Positions 2,796-14,964 of a stretch of DNA of 32,972 nt are shown one piece after another. Origin of the DNA: a virus; the IMG/VR virus record IMGVR_UViG_3300042691_021369, positions 1 to 32,972 of that record. One strand, 5' to 3'. How positions within the stretch are numbered: the first letter of the stretch is position 1; each line of letters starts with the position of its first letter. Below the pieces are notes generated by a model, which was not told the origin of the DNA, searched no databases, and saw nothing but the letters and a program-made list of their open reading frames with translations. A program made the translations under genes and the position numbers.

Positions 2796-3012
2796 TAGGC
2801 TTTAATTCAGACGCTGCCTCATTAAATCTATCCATAAACATCTTTACAACAAAATAAGTTGTATCCATAGAATTATTAGATAAATTCTTTATATTATCAT
2901 CTGTTCTTTGATCTTCAGGCAAGGCATTTGCCCATTTTTGAAATAATGCCTGTGCAACATCTTGAATAATTCCTTCAAGCACAGTCATGGTCTTTCCCAT
3001 TTTCTCATCCAT
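2779..3012 (-). CDS. Hypothetical protein, helical
   Basis: A 77-aa, mostly helical and charged protein. ATG 3012 has AGGAG 6 nt upstream and overlaps the protease gene by 8 nt, so the two are probably cotranslated. No motif is recognised. It could be a partner of the upstream S8 protease or an unrelated accessory protein. Confidence 0.65.
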   Translation of the reverse strand: MDEKMGKTMTVLEGIIQDVAQALFQKWANALPEDQRTDDNIKNLSNNSMDTTYFVVKMFMDRFNEAASELKPIDETE

Positions 3013-3913
3013 TGATTGCTCCTTTTACATTAATTAGTCGACCAGGTATGGTTTTACTATTTACTGAATATGATGTTTTAGATATAAGATTATACATTTC
3101 ATCATAAGTTAGATTTGGTTTTAATGACTTAATATAAATCCATTGGGCTGCTGCAACCTGTGTAGCTACAGAAGTCCCACTAGAAATACCACTCACATTA
3201 CCAACACTAATTGTCTTTACAGTTCCTTTTGCATAAAAATCTGTCAAGGCGGTGTCTACATTACTTGATGTAGCAATAGCATTTTTAAGATCTACTGCTC
3301 CAATGGCAATTGAATCTTGAATGCATGCAGGCCAGTCTATTCTGTCTTTATCCCCATTATTTCCTGTTGGAAAAAATACTGGAATATTGAGGGACTTAAG
3401 TTCATATATCATAGGTTGTAATACCTTAGAGGATGGGCAATATTGCCTGTAATATAAAAGCTTATGGTGTCCCTGAGACATAGATACAGCCTGAATATTA
3501 TATTTATCTCTGTTATCTCTTACCCAAGCCATCGCTTCCGCCACCGTATTTTCAGTAGTTGGCATCCTATAACCCTTTGAGTTATGTCCAATAATCCTAA
3601 TAAAAACTATATTCACATTTGGATTTGCAAGAGCTGCGATTGAAGCCATTTGAGTTCCATGTGTAAAACCATTACGAGAAATAATTTCATATGGCAGAAC
3701 TGCAGATCCAATTCCTTCCATGTAGTAATCTCCGTTTGGACATGAAGGCCAATCTAGTATGCAAACTTCTTGAACAATTCTTCCTTGAAAAATTGGCAAT
3801 GAAGTATCTATGGCAGTATCAATAATTGCTATAGTAGGTTTTGTTTGATCAGCATTTGCTGGCAGAATGCCAAGCATTGCTACGATAACCGCAAAGGATA
3901 TTCTCTTTATCAT
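3005..3913 (-). CDS. Secreted subtilisin-like (S8) serine protease
   Basis: This 302-aa protein has a signal peptide (residues 1-21, cleavage near NA-DQ) followed by a full S8 catalytic domain. The triad is D32 in IAIIDTAID, H85 in NGFTHGTQMAS and S248 in GISSGTSVA, and the oxyanion Asn lies in FFPTGNNGD (N185 or N186). There is no long propeptide, because the mature part starts almost at the Asp motif. It is therefore likely an active exported peptidase acting outside the cytoplasm, not a prohead protease. Possible roles are degrading surface proteins or processing the phage's own exported proteins. It has its own promoter, with 6 nt between -10 and ATG. Confidence 0.9.
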   Translation of the reverse strand: MIKRISFAVIVAMLGILPANADQTKPTIAIIDTAIDTSLPIFQGRIVQEVCILDWPSCPNGDYYMEGIGSAVLPYEIISRNGFTHGTQMASIAALANPNVNIVFIRIIGHNSKGYRMPTTENTVAEAMAWVRDNRDKYNIQAVSMSQGHHKLLYYRQYCPSSKVLQPMIYELKSLNIPVFFPTGNNGDKDRIDWPACIQDSIAIGAVDLKNAIATSSNVDTALTDFYAKGTVKTISVGNVSGISSGTSVATQVAAAQWIYIKSLKPNLTYDEMYNLISKTSYSVNSKTIPGRLINVKGAING

Positions 3914-3951: not shown

Positions 3952-4122
3952 CTAATCTTTTTTCTTATTTGGTGAGTACCATTTACCAGCATCCATAGAT
4001 GAAGGTATATTTAATTTATTTGTTTCTAAGATTGCTTCTAAAGTAATCTTAATGTATTCCAACTCAAATTGTTGTCTCAATACTTCTAATTCAAGTATTC
4101 TGATTCTATCTGATTTTCTCAA
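3952..4122 (-). CDS. 56-aa hypothetical protein with TTG start
   Basis: A 56-codon frame from TTG 4122 overlaps the stop of the upstream gene as TTGA, the analogue of the common ATGA coupling. It encodes a helix of hydrophobic heptads (residues 1-36) and a polar tail containing DAGKWYSP. Weak purine-rich sequence (GGAAAA) precedes the start. No ATG start is available. The overlap and the composition support coding. Confidence 0.6.
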   Translation of the reverse strand: MRKSDRIRILELEVLRQQFELEYIKITLEAILETNKLNIPSSMDAGKWYSPNKKKD

Positions 4123-4472
4123 TTTTCCATTCCTTCGATATCGACAGGGGTTGGGGCTGTTGCAAGACTACCGCAGTTTGCACATTCCATATCTAAAAAG
4201 TAAGTAGCAATTTGATATTCTGAAAATATTACTTTGACATTCCAGATATTACATCCACATATACATTCATGTGTAGGAGTTCCACGAAGATCCATAGCGC
4301 TATTATAATTAGCTGGCCTTAAATCTTTAATGTCCAACTCTTCGTCCTCATCATCAAACTCTACATCGCTTCCCGAAACTACGAGAATTCTGTTCTTTTC
4401 TAGCAGGTCTCTCGCCATCCCTAGCGTTACTAGACCAAAAAGTAGGGCTGAAAGACGTGAGAGCCATTTCAT
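4119..4472 (-). CDS. Membrane-anchored or exported protein with CxCxC/CxxC zinc ribbon
   Basis: This 117-aa protein has an N-terminal hydrophobic segment (residues 7-20), an acidic linker (DEDEELD, 42-48) and a metal-binding module with C70, C72, C74, C97 and C100. The hydrophobic segment lacks a clear cleavage site, so it is probably an anchor. No family is recognised. It is driven by its own promoter with 6 nt between -10 and ATG, and couples to a TTG-started small gene. Confidence 0.7.
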   Translation of the reverse strand: MKWLSRLSALLFGLVTLGMARDLLEKNRILVVSGSDVEFDDEDEELDIKDLRPANYNSAMDLRGTPTHECICGCNIWNVKVIFSEYQIATYFLDMECANCGSLATAPTPVDIEGMEN

Positions 4473-4478
4473 AAATCT

Positions 4479-4507
4479 ATTATACTCTAGACTTCGATAA
4501 TTGTAAA
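4479..4507 (-). promoter_or_regulatory. Promoter for leaderless zinc-ribbon gene
   Basis: TTTACA (4502-4507), a 17-nt spacer and a perfect TATAAT (4479-4484), with 6 nt to ATG 4472. The whole promoter lies across the end of the upstream proteasome-like gene. Confidence 0.75.
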
Positions 4508-5053
4508 GGGAGGTCTTACCGCCATATTAAACTTAGCTGCAGCCTCTAAAGCCATGCGTACACGCTTACGTGGAGTTTTAACTAATGCTGTAGAGAACAA
4601 AGATCCTAGTGCTAACTCTTGGCCAGCACCTTCTGCCATGTATGGAACATCAACTTCTGCAACATGAAAATCACTATCCATTGTAAATATTCTTCCAGAA
4701 CCTTGTACTGCAATTATAAAGATACCGCCTTGATCTCCATCTTCAGTTCCTGAACTAAAGTTTCCGTATCCATATTCTTTAAACGCATCTTTAACAGATT
4801 CAACAAATTTTGTTTTAATAAATTTATCTAGATTTCTAAATCCAGCAGTTGGTTTATAAACAGGTGGTGTCCAATAGTACTGAAGTATTTGACCCATTCT
4901 AAAACTATCAACAAAGCCTATGCCGAATTGTCCAACCTTAAAAACTTTTGGATCTGTACGCTGAAATATTAAACCAGACTTATCATCAGATGCAGCGGCA
5001 TCTCCGCCAAGGAGGACTTTGTTCTCATTTATGAGGGCTACTATACAGGTCAT
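4487..5053 (-). CDS. Proteasome-like Ntn hydrolase with N-terminal threonine
   Basis: From ATG 5053 the 188-aa protein reads MTCIVALI, so removal of Met would expose Thr1, the nucleophile of proteasome beta subunits and HslV. Counting from that Thr, Asp17 (GGDAAAS) and Lys35 (DPKVF, matching Lys33 of beta subunits with a small insertion) are present. The chain length suits one Ntn-hydrolase domain. An in-frame start at 5107 would add 18 residues and bury the Thr. It is disfavoured because a promoter sits 7 nt upstream of 5053. The neighbours include an S8 protease and a zinc-ribbon protein. No ATPase partner is seen. It could be a peptidase or another amide-bond hydrolase. Confidence 0.75.
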   Translation of the reverse strand: MTCIVALINENKVLLGGDAAASDDKSGLIFQRTDPKVFKVGQFGIGFVDSFRMGQILQYYWTPPVYKPTAGFRNLDKFIKTKFVESVKDAFKEYGYGNFSSGTEDGDQGGIFIIAVQGSGRIFTMDSDFHVAEVDVPYMAEGAGQELALGSLFSTALVKTPRKRVRMALEAAAKFNMAVRPPFTIIEV

Positions 5054-5060
5054 ATGGACT

Positions 5061-5089
5061 AGTATACTATTTTTAAAATTCCTAGTCCA
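5061..5089 (-). promoter_or_regulatory. Promoter for leaderless proteasome-like gene
   Basis: TGGACT (5084-5089), a 17-nt spacer and TATACT (5061-5066), with 7 nt to ATG 5053. No ribosome-binding site precedes the ATG. Confidence 0.65.
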
Positions 5090-5412: not shown

Positions 5413-5649
5413 TTAAACTAATAGCTCAGATGCTGATATTTCGTTGCCAATATAACGCTTTTTTAAAACAATTTCTCGTACATGCTCAGCGCCATTAGAT
5501 CTTCCCGCCAAAATTACTACCCATCGTGGCTCAAATTTTGAATTAATGCAACTCTCGCACATCAATAAATTAATTGGCAATAAAGTAGATTTTTTTACAT
5601 CTAATTTAGCTTTAGTTTTATTGCACGAATAGCACAATATTTTTTCCAT
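5413..5649 (-). CDS. Zinc-ribbon hypothetical protein
   Basis: 78 aa with two CxxC knuckles (C6/C9 and C31/C34) forming a treble-clef or ribbon site, followed by a short beta-rich part (RWVVILAGR). It starts by TAATG overlap with the upstream gene. It is one of several small Cys-rich proteins in this genome. Function unknown. Confidence 0.65.
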   Translation of the reverse strand: MEKILCYSCNKTKAKLDVKKSTLLPINLLMCESCINSKFEPRWVVILAGRSNGAEHVREIVLKKRYIGNEISASELLV

Positions 5650-5846: not shown

Positions 5847-6156
5847 TAGGTTTGCCCTCCAGCTCGCATCTTACTCCATATGATTCAATTAGTTTTTTTA
5901 CCTTGGTAACATAGTCAATTACCATTTCTTTGTCTCTTCCATCAAATTGTAAAAAATTATCTTCATATAATCTTAATGCTAAAAACTCTGGATACATAAC
6001 CACATCCATTAATAGTAAATGGGGTTTCTTAATTTCACGTATTTTTTTCTTCATTTCTTCGGTATAGAACACAGGCTTATTTGGTTCGCCAGTCCATTGA
6101 TTAATGCCGTATTTAAAATGTTCTTTTAATCGATCATTGCTTTTATCAATATACAT
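5830..6156 (-). CDS. Hypothetical protein
   Basis: A 108-aa protein. Residues 50-108 look like a compact alpha/beta domain (ALRLYEDNFLQFDGRDKE then a helix). It overlaps the WhiB gene by 11 nt and belongs to the 6665-5413 operon. The family is unknown. Its location directly after WhiB suggests co-regulation only. Confidence 0.6.
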   Translation of the reverse strand: MYIDKSNDRLKEHFKYGINQWTGEPNKPVFYTEEMKKKIREIKKPHLLLMDVVMYPEFLALRLYEDNFLQFDGRDKEMVIDYVTKVKKLIESYGVRCELEGKPSERVL

Positions 6157-6457
6157 TTTTCTTTTTCAGCCTCTTCCATACCTCTTGATTTTTATGTAAA
6201 TTCTTTGACTTATCTATAGAGCCTGCGGTTAAAAATACTCCACCCCATACTCCATATTCATCTTTTTCTATTCCCGCTTGATAACACATTGATATTACTG
6301 GGCAAGATAGACACATCTCATCAATATTCTTTGCAATATTTTGATCTGCTTCGTACTTATCATAAAACATATTGGTTTCCATATCCCTGCATACTGCAAG
6401 GTGATACCAATCAAAATCTTCTGGATCTACTCCAAGATCACTTAAAATGCTTGACAT
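6146..6457 (-). CDS. whiB: WhiB-family iron-sulfur transcription regulator
   Basis: This 103-aa protein has the four WhiB cysteines C23, C49, C52 and C58 in the spacing C-x25-C-x2-C-x5-C, followed by GVWGG at 69-73. They form the 4Fe-4S cluster site and the turn that contacts the sigma factor. A basic C-terminal tail (KKSKN-like residues) provides the DNA-binding part. WhiB proteins are restricted to actinobacteria and their phages, so this fixes the host phylum. The phage copy probably reprograms host or phage sigma-A promoters. The gene overlaps its upstream neighbour by 20 nt and shares the promoter at 6708-6737. Confidence 0.93.
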   Translation of the reverse strand: MSSILSDLGVDPEDFDWYHLAVCRDMETNMFYDKYEADQNIAKNIDEMCLSCPVISMCYQAGIEKDEYGVWGGVFLTAGSIDKSKNLHKNQEVWKRLKKKNVY

Positions 6458-6665
6458 ATTTTACGGGTAATTTCCATATCCCTTTATCATTAACGGAGAT
6501 TCTTTCTGCCGTTCCCCAAGTGTTCTTTCTGAACATGCCCTTTATGTCTAAATATCCTGAACTATTTTTTTTCCAAATTATTAAATCGTAGTTATCCCAA
6601 AACGGATCTATATTCCTTGCCTTCTTTATGAAGACTTCTACACCCTTTTCAGTTAAATTTAACAT
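6438..6665 (-). CDS. Hypothetical protein at head of whiB operon
   Basis: 75 aa, with a beta-rich pattern containing aromatic residues (WGTAERISVNDKGIWKLP). AAGGA lies about 4 nt before ATG 6665. It is the first gene of the operon that includes WhiB. No family is recognised. Confidence 0.65.
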   Translation of the reverse strand: MLNLTEKGVEVFIKKARNIDPFWDNYDLIIWKKNSSGYLDIKGMFRKNTWGTAERISVNDKGIWKLPVKYVKHFK

Positions 6666-11507: not shown

Positions 11508-11927
11508 TTACTTGATTTTGATTGTCTTAGGCTTTTTGTCTTCTGGTACAATTTTTTCGACTGTGACAGACAACAAACCGTTCTTTAATTCAGCACCAGT
11601 AACTTCCATATATTCACCAAGCGCAAATGTGCGGGTAAATTTACGAGCAGCAATTCCTTTATGAACTGCTTCACCAGTTTCTTCTGTAGCAACTTCTCCC
11701 TTAATAACAAGAGTTCCGTTATCTACTGTGACATCTACATCTTTTTTATCGAACCCCGCCAAAGCTAGGTCGACACGAAAGATATCATCCTCTACCTTTA
11801 CAATATTGTAAGGTGGATATGACTGATGTGATGCTGTTGTATGTACTGAATTTAGGCGATCAACCATCCCGTTGAAGCCAATAAAAAAGGGATCCTTGAA
11901 AAGGTCCCATGTATATGTTGTAACCAT
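11508..11927 (-). CDS. Small heat-shock protein Hsp20
   Basis: 139 aa with a complete alpha-crystallin domain (residues about 40-139): VDLALAGFDKKDVDV, a variable loop and GLLSVTVEK near the end, plus the C-terminal (K)IKIK segment. Small heat-shock proteins hold unfolding proteins in an ATP-independent way. Hsp20 is frequent in phages of aquatic hosts. It has AAGGAGGA 5 nt upstream and its own promoter. Confidence 0.93.
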   Translation of the reverse strand: MVTTYTWDLFKDPFFIGFNGMVDRLNSVHTTASHQSYPPYNIVKVEDDIFRVDLALAGFDKKDVDVTVDNGTLVIKGEVATEETGEAVHKGIAARKFTRTFALGEYMEVTGAELKNGLLSVTVEKIVPEDKKPKTIKIK

Positions 11928-12925: not shown

Positions 12926-13177
12926 CTATTGTAATGTACCGTCTTCGTTTTTGTCAATAGTTGACTCTACTAATTGCTGTACATATTCTGAAAAATGTTT
13001 TCTGATATTTCCTGGTGGCCTTGACCCAGAAGCCTTCCAGATTCTCTTATATTCAATTACATTTGAAAATGTAGTTGGGCACAGCATATTACCATCATAC
13101 TCTTTTAATACAGTTGGAAGCGGTACATGCTTGCCACAACATTTACATTCTTTAGCTTTATCTTGGTATATGCTCAT
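12926..13177 (-). CDS. Cys-rich hypothetical protein
   Basis: 83 aa with CKCCGKH (C11, C13, C14) and C33, a probable zinc site. It overlaps the terminase stop as ATGA and is cotranslated with it. It lies between TerL and the HNH gene, which hints at a packaging accessory role. No family is recognised. Confidence 0.65.
   Translation of the reverse strand: MSIYQDKAKECKCCGKHVPLPTVLKEYDGNMLCPTTFSNVIEYKRIWKASGSRPPGNIRKHFSEYVQQLVESTIDKNEDGTLQ
12928..12957 (-). promoter_or_regulatory. Promoter for leaderless HNH gene
   Basis: TTGACA (12952-12957), an 18-nt spacer and TACAAT (12928-12933), with 7 nt to ATG 12920. It lies within the end of the upstream gene. Confidence 0.6.
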
Positions 13178-14964
13178 ACTATTTCCATTCCCTCTATTAC
13201 TTCGGACAACTCTCTAGGCATTCTAGGCGCTCTAATAACATTCATTCTTGTAGTATCTTGATCTTCTTCTCTATCCCACCGCATAGGATCATATGTATGG
13301 ATATCTATTTCTTGATTATTATCTGGTTTTGTTCTACTAATTGCATTATATATAGACCCACAAACTGCATCCGCCAAGTCTTTAGATCCTTTTCTTGGGT
13401 GGTCTACCTTATCACGCATAATTTTTAATTGAAGTAATTCATCTATCAATAGCGGAATATGGGGACCAGATAATCTTTCTTCAAGGACTATCATAGCCAT
13501 ATCGTCATAATGCTTTTTAGCAACCGATAAAGTCTCTGTATTAATTCCATAAGTTTTTAATTGCTGCATCATATCATGTGAGTTCCAACGGTCAAATGTG
13601 CAGATACGAATTTTAAATCCAGCAGTTCTTAAAGATAAAATATAATCTTTTACTTCTGTAAAGTCTACAGATTTATCTGCAGTTGGTGTCCAGTATCTGA
13701 CAGCATCAACTTCTACAATTGGAGCTGGTTGAGAATAAGTATCAGTTACTTTTATGTTTACCCATTTCTGAACATGTGACATAGCAACAGCACAATGGTC
13801 ATGCTTCTGAGCAAGGTCTACGTGCAAGAAATATTCTTTGTCTGGATCTGGTGCAAACCACGGTTCTAGCCTTCCAAATGAATCAACTGCTATAGCCATA
13901 TTGCTAAATGACTTTTCAATCTTTTCACGAGACTTAAAGAATGCATCAATTGCTTCTGGTGGCATACAGGCAAAGCGGCTTAGAGCATCTGGCATATTCT
14001 TATAAAACTCAATCTTAAAGTCTTCAATCTTTTTTGTAGGATTTACTTCCCATGTAGGTCTCTTTAATGCATATACTTTAGGGATTTTATACGAGACAAT
14101 ATGATCTTCTTCCCACTCAACAAATATCTCATTACCCAAAGTTCCATCTGGCAAATCTTCGTCCATCTTAAGTGTCTTGCTTCTTACAATAGTTTCTTTT
14201 TCTGCAATTACAGAATCGTAAAACTTTTGAATTGGGTCATTCTTAAAACGTGGGAATGAAAGAAGAATAATCTTTCCATAGTCTGGAAAACGAGATATAA
14301 CAGATCCACGATACATGTCATAGATAGCATCAGCTGTTTTAGCTTGATCATGACCTGTTGTATTCTCTGTAGCAAAGCCAGAAATTTCATCAAGGATTAC
14401 TGCGATAACGTTGTATCCTTCGAATGCTTCTCGTTCTGAGTGTCCAGAATAAACATTTACATTTTTATTAAATCTAATTTCAGCAGCCTTCGGGTCATAC
14501 TTTCCAATAAACCATGGACTTCTTTCGATACGAGTCTTGAATCCCTTAAAGAAAACGTTGTTAGCCTGTTGTGCGTTAACCGCAATATTAATAATATCAA
14601 TTGTGTCTCCAGGCGGCTTACCATAATATGTTGCTGGATCTTTTAGGCATAGCAATAAATATACCATGTATGATACAGATATCGTTGAAGTATAATCTTT
14701 GCCAGAACCTTTACCTAATTGAGCAATAATTTCTGTGCAAGTCTGCTTAAATCTACGAGTTCCTTCTTCTTCGCCAAATAGTTTAATTAGTGTTGACTCT
14801 TTGTATATCTGTGAACCTTTTTCAATTAATGTATATTGATATTCGGAAAGTGGAGGAAGGCCGAGATAATCAGGGCTTGTAACAAATGTACGCAAATCAA
14901 CTGGTCTCTCATCAAACTCCTCTCCATCAAGGATATCGATAAGATCATTAAAATTAAGATCCAC
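13174..14964 (-). CDS. terL: Terminase large subunit
   Basis: 596 aa. The N-terminal ATPase has a Walker A QLGKGSGKD at 82-90 (Asp in place of the usual Thr/Ser after GK) and a Walker B VIAVILDE at 187-193 with catalytic E193. The C-terminal RNase H-like nuclease has Asp383 (LHVDLA), Asp458 (CTFDRW) and Asp532 (KDLADAV). The protein cuts concatemers and drives DNA into the prohead. It overlaps the small subunit gene by 11 nt. The fold and motifs are unambiguous. Confidence 0.96.
   Translation of the reverse strand: MDLNFNDLIDILDGEEFDERPVDLRTFVTSPDYLGLPPLSEYQYTLIEKGSQIYKESTLIKLFGEEEGTRRFKQTCTEIIAQLGKGSGKDYTSTISVSYMVYLLLCLKDPATYYGKPPGDTIDIINIAVNAQQANNVFFKGFKTRIERSPWFIGKYDPKAAEIRFNKNVNVYSGHSEREAFEGYNVIAVILDEISGFATENTTGHDQAKTADAIYDMYRGSVISRFPDYGKIILLSFPRFKNDPIQKFYDSVIAEKETIVRSKTLKMDEDLPDGTLGNEIFVEWEEDHIVSYKIPKVYALKRPTWEVNPTKKIEDFKIEFYKNMPDALSRFACMPPEAIDAFFKSREKIEKSFSNMAIAVDSFGRLEPWFAPDPDKEYFLHVDLAQKHDHCAVAMSHVQKWVNIKVTDTYSQPAPIVEVDAVRYWTPTADKSVDFTEVKDYILSLRTAGFKIRICTFDRWNSHDMMQQLKTYGINTETLSVAKKHYDDMAMIVLEERLSGPHIPLLIDELLQLKIMRDKVDHPRKGSKDLADAVCGSIYNAISRTKPDNNQEIDIHTYDPMRWDREEDQDTTRMNVIRAPRMPRELSEVIEGMEIV

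Follow-up and report, generated by a model that had tools for sequence, protein, structure and literature searches.

A predicted proteasome-fold hydrolase with an N-terminal threonine encoded by an actinophage

Fuchs, Alva, and Lupas (2021) placed HslV together with the proteasome homologs BPH, AAH, CPH, PPH, RPC, and DPH in group I, and reported that no AAA+ partner co-occurred with the new homologs (PMC8665760). Within this group, AAH is most abundant in Actinobacteria, where their survey recovered neither an Actinobacteria-specific phage with AAH nor a sign of phage transfer, and PPH is a protein of ∼140 residues without helix H2 (PMC8665760). BPH is a propeptide-free homo-tetradecamer from which the start methionine is removed; its Thr1 reacts with epoxomicin, and despite this reaction the enzyme is inert on standard substrates (PMC5777263). 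Ser139 of BPH contacts Thr1 and Gly50 is the oxyanion glycine, while Td-BPH has Lys37 (PMC5777263).

The window analyzed here, the whole 32,972-nucleotide stretch of an IMG/VR virus record, is a 33-kb fragment with one proteasome-fold gene copy, whose product is a single-gene member of the proteasome/HslV/BPH superfamily and belongs to a family already known in phages. The protein matches PHROG 1040, "peptidase HslV family" (E = 1.7e-13). Pfam Proteasome, searched with the single sequence, gave E = 0.16 and 12.1 bits, below its cutoff of 22.4, and a 20S beta subunit was rejected on this score together with the lack of an alpha subunit in the window. An NCBIfam search at E = 1 returned no HslV match and only a 20S beta model (0.12, far below its cutoff), and phmmer against the PDB with the single sequence returned nothing useful. 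Because single-sequence searches were too weak, profiles were needed; a profile of 89 relatives matched the solved structures of BPH (5e-8) and HslV (7e-8) by sequence alone. An AlphaFold2 model built with the 89-member alignment (pLDDT 94.0, pTM 0.88) had BPH as its top Foldseek match, followed by HslV and 20S beta. VIA-align superposed model residues 2..188 on BPH chain residues 1..186 (Z 20.4, rmsd 2.4 Å over 169 residues), placing model residue 2 (Thr1) on BPH Thr1, and gave Z values of ∼19 for HslV and ∼18 for actinobacterial 20S beta. The initial annotation of this DNA had proposed a proteasome/HslV-type Ntn hydrolase and had set beforehand a fold without the alpha-beta-beta-alpha sandwich as refuting; the predicted model contains the sandwich, with helices H1 (51-60) and H2 (71-94, 24 residues), and the proposed identity is borne out, with BPH as the nearest structure.

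The 188-codon frame runs from ATG 5053 to 4487 (Table 1), and the protein N-terminus, MTCIVALINENKVLLGGDAAA (M-T-C-I-V-A-L), is the one initially proposed and can be read directly from the frame. Residue numbers (Thr1, Asp17, Lys35) are given in mature numbering, with the start methionine not counted. All 80 of 80 related IMG/VR loci share the ATG start with a threonine codon next to it, and together with the conserved upstream -10 element this upholds the start at 5053. A start at TTG 5107 was rejected: the in-frame extension that it would add is not conserved and runs across the conserved promoter, and in many relatives a stop ends the upstream frame after a few codons. The dN/dS values of 0.006 to 0.08 indicate strong purifying selection on the gene. 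Methionine removal leaving an N-terminal threonine, also part of the original proposal, is likewise supported; we infer that methionine aminopeptidase exposes Thr1 in the phage subunit, and mass spectrometry has shown this exposure in BPH (PMC5777263).

Table 1. Coordinates of the hydrolase gene, its predicted catalytic codons, promoter elements, and conserved neighbor
Feature	Position	Strand	Conservation or evidence
CDS, 188 aa, proteasome-fold Ntn hydrolase (PHROG 1040; most likely AAH-like, group I homolog)	4487..5053	(-)	
Thr1 codon, second codon; predicted nucleophile after Met removal	5048..5050	(-)	Thr in 89/89; aligned with BPH residue 1
Asp17 codon	5000..5002	(-)	Asp in 89/89
Lys35 codon, counterpart of proteasome Lys33 and Td-BPH Lys37	4946..4948	(-)	Lys in 89/89; profile alignment to BPH
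Extended -10 element TAGTATACT, 7 nt before ATG	5061..5069	(-)	Kept in 43/43 distinct upstream regions, C/A at one position
-35-like hexamer TGGACT	5084..5089	(-)	17-nt spacer; TGGAC-like consensus in relatives
WhiB gene, conserved neighbor and actinobacterial host marker (context only)	6146..6457	(-)	Pfam Whib 1.6e-11

The catalytic set suggested for this protein (Thr1, Asp17, and Lys35) is present, and each residue is invariant among the aligned family members. In the profile alignment to BPH, Gly50 and Ser139 of BPH are replaced by Asp48 and Ala142, and therefore the chemistry may differ from that of BPH. Asp48 stands at the position equivalent to the oxyanion-hole Gly47, and its backbone amide may still serve the oxyanion hole. 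Across the family, the oxyanion glycine is kept in 6 and the serine in 9 of the 89 members, and Arg51, within the motif SFRMGQ, is invariant in the alignment. As aligned, the family retains the triad but mostly not the accessory residues of BPH; the predicted fold, start site, and triad are based on a confident model together with the comparison of sequences.

As initially reported, a promoter lies 7 nt from the ATG: the -10 hexamer TATACT (5066-5061) ends at this distance from ATG 5053. We compared 43 distinct upstream regions from relatives with at least 70% protein identity, and every one of them carries TAGTATA(C/A)T 6 to 7 nt from the ATG along with a TGGAC-like -35, while the flanks vary. 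Promoter-like matches in the window are no commoner than in shuffles (15 found, 16.5 ± 4.3 expected), and a promoter claim from a single sequence therefore proves little. With the -10 box so near the ATG, the transcript would start at or adjacent to ATG 5053, an arrangement that points to a leaderless mRNA. Boxes of this kind stand 6 to 9 nt before the start in 10 of 57 window genes versus 5.6% of other same-strand ATGs (P ∼0.001), and these ten leaderless-class genes have a TATAAT-like hexamer at that distance without a good Shine-Dalgarno sequence (starts on the minus strand at 2760, 3913, 4472, 5053, 5384, 8964, 12510, 12920, 15493, and 32922). Because some ten window genes share it, the arrangement at 5053 is not special: it is a general habit of the phage and not a device for the hydrolase. 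The initial argument that two independent signals agree is fair, but the promoter layout that it invokes is common in this phage.

The WhiB gene, 1.1 kb upstream of the hydrolase gene, was present in all 11 long relatives searched, and the sole DNA-level relatives of the large terminase gene (13174-14964, minus strand) are ∼130-kb Streptomyces phages (e.g., Forrest, Yaboi, and TunaTartare). Since WhiB is conserved and the terminase DNA resembles only Streptomyces phages, we take the host to be an actinobacterium, probably one of freshwater habitat. A perfect consensus promoter, TTGACA-18-TATAAT (6737-6708, minus strand), stands upstream of the gene with its start at 6665, which leads into WhiB. 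Genes at 5413, 5830, 6146 (WhiB), 4119, and 3005 (subtilase) are kept in 73 to 79 of the 80 loci. The subtilase (3005-3913, minus strand; Peptidase_S8, E = 2.2e-19) has a signal-peptide-like start, occurs in 73 of 80 relatives, and is a second protease near the Ntn hydrolase gene. Directly downstream of the latter, 4119-4472 (minus strand; 76 of 80 loci) encodes a small protein for which no family match was found; it has a hydrophobic segment at its N-terminus and cysteines in the arrangement CxC...CxxC. The window also encodes an Hsp20 chaperone (11508-11927), a thioredoxin (1988-2314), and a pyrimidine-dimer DNA glycosylase (2287-2760), all on the minus strand. The initial observation that the window has no ATPase or alpha subunit was confirmed, and neither the window nor 11 relatives, which are incomplete records, yielded an AAA or AAA_2 protein above the cutoff.

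In the family tree, the lineage of the window is a separate, long-branched clade (100/100). Phages that infect hosts distant from actinobacteria also carry family members. Streptomyces has them in 11 of 247 genomes, grouping in the tree with an IMG/VR contig; a sample of 296 Actinomycetota genomes gave a match in the Streptomyces seed genome only, and alpha-proteobacteria gave a strong match in one genome, with other profile matches weak. Two Streptomyces copies adjoin a terminase gene (L093:3465-7824 and L279:5429-11224), and L279 also a portal gene, which suggests prophage carriage; because they adjoin phage packaging genes, these copies support phages as carriers of the family in Actinobacteria. 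A comparison of Streptomyces neighborhoods revealed no conserved partner gene. Distant proteasome-fold genes, annotated merely as "protease," occur in isolated Arthrobacter and Microbacterium phages (H67, H69, and H71). Our literature search found no paper on the function of the phage family members, and two papers on freshwater actinophages mention neither proteases nor HslV in the main text.

A second, diverged proteasome-fold gene, ∼25% identical and of the type found in phage DSL-LC01, lies ∼6 to 13 kb away in 5 of 30 relatives. It encodes 177 to 180 aa with a Met/Leu-Thr-Thr start (L289:7838-8371, plus strand; L290-L294) the start codon being ATG or TTG with threonine next to it, and it has Asp17 and a lysine. 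A GroES-like gene follows it in three of the five carriers.

Taken jointly, leaderless expression, methionine removal, a Thr1 nucleophile, a likely barrel, and ATP-independent selective peptidase activity during infection make up the account that we consider probable. A sigma-70-type promoter 7 nt upstream would start an mRNA with little or no leader, at or beside ATG 5053, and host deformylase and methionine aminopeptidase would then strip fMet, exposing Thr1 without a propeptide. Thr1 would act as the nucleophile, aided by Lys35 and Asp17; the subunit would probably form a homo-oligomeric barrel like that of BPH or HslV, and the barrel would act in infection as an ATP-independent, substrate-selective peptidase. 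Methionine removal, ring assembly, peptidase activity, and the infection role are what we infer here, and since BPH is inert on standard substrates, easy activity of the phage subunit should not be assumed. If active, these proteins would be small proteasome-type enzymes with neither a propeptide nor an evident ATPase, open to direct testing.

The place of HslV among the closest structures (Z ∼19), and its requirement for HslU (PMC5777263), could instead suggest a protease of the HslV type that works with an AAA+ ring of the host (ARC/Mpa, ClpX/ClpC, or other) and so degrades folded proteins of host or phage; we regard this as unlikely, given that no gene for an AAA+ partner lies nearby in the phages searched, that Fuchs et al. 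found none alongside the new homologs (PMC8665760), and that NCBIfam returned no HslV match at E = 1. Replacement of the accessory active-site residues and the invariance of Arg51 would fit a possibly monomeric protein ligase or specific processing enzyme instead of a barrel protease, and connectase shows that the fold can work as a monomeric ligase (PMC8665760). Our model, however, is without the connectase-like S3/S4 two-helix insertion and has both helix pairs, as in barrel members, and such an enzyme seems quite unlikely to us. Similarly doubtful is a function in infection as a processing enzyme or ligase, or as an ATP-free two-subunit ring, arising from the retooled site (no oxyanion Gly or Ser129 equivalent, Arg51 invariant), sometimes combined with the paralog. 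Many actinobacteria have a 20S proteasome, and the beta-type fold of the phage protein lies near actinobacterial 20S beta (Z ∼18); a binder or decoy that coassembles with the 20S proteasome of the host, if it has one, or blocks it, with catalysis secondary, is nevertheless highly improbable considering the invariance of the triad across a very diverse family and the occurrence of members in phages whose hosts are far from actinobacteria.

Compared with described systems, the ATP-independent peptidase that we favor belongs most likely to the AAH subfamily (seed WP_035979212), an assignment made by features. AAH fits because length, helices, lack of a propeptide, nearest structures, and host range agree: AAH has the compact size of group I, H1-H4, and no propeptide, like the 188-aa window protein with its Met-Thr start, and its spread over phages, Firmicutes, Bacteroidetes, alpha-proteobacteria, and Actinobacteria equals that of the window family. 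The two differ in that the 2021 survey found no AAH in actinophages (PMC8665760), whereas the window protein comes from an actinophage and the lineage of this phage as a whole carries an AAH-like gene. Membership in PPH was ruled out by the 188 residues and the 24-residue H2. BPH (PDB 5ovs, 5ovt, and 5ovu) is the best structural and profile match and shares Thr1, Asp17, and the lysine, a propeptide-free state, methionine removal (shown in BPH, predicted here), and the lack of a known AAA+ partner; it differs in its low identity (∼20%) and in having Gly50/Ser139 where the window protein has Asp48/Ala142. HslV (ClpQ) is alike in fold, size (∼175 to 188 aa), Thr1, and Asp17, but the lysine is at 35 here and not at 33, NCBIfam yields no HslV match, and no HslU/ClpX-type ATPase over the cutoff was found in the phages searched. 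The "ATP-dependent protease subunit HslV" of Actinomycetia phage DSL-LC01 also comes from an actinophage, adjoins a WhiB gene, and has Thr1, Asp17, and Lys, but it is 27% identical and on a separate branch, corresponding to the second paralog described above. PHROG 1040 proteins from Psychrobacter phage D'Alembert and Moorella phage MTATph1 differ in host and gene neighbors, and the annotation of some uses alternative starts (MTATph1), but they share full-length homology with the window protein at 38 to 40% identity, together with its Met-Thr start.
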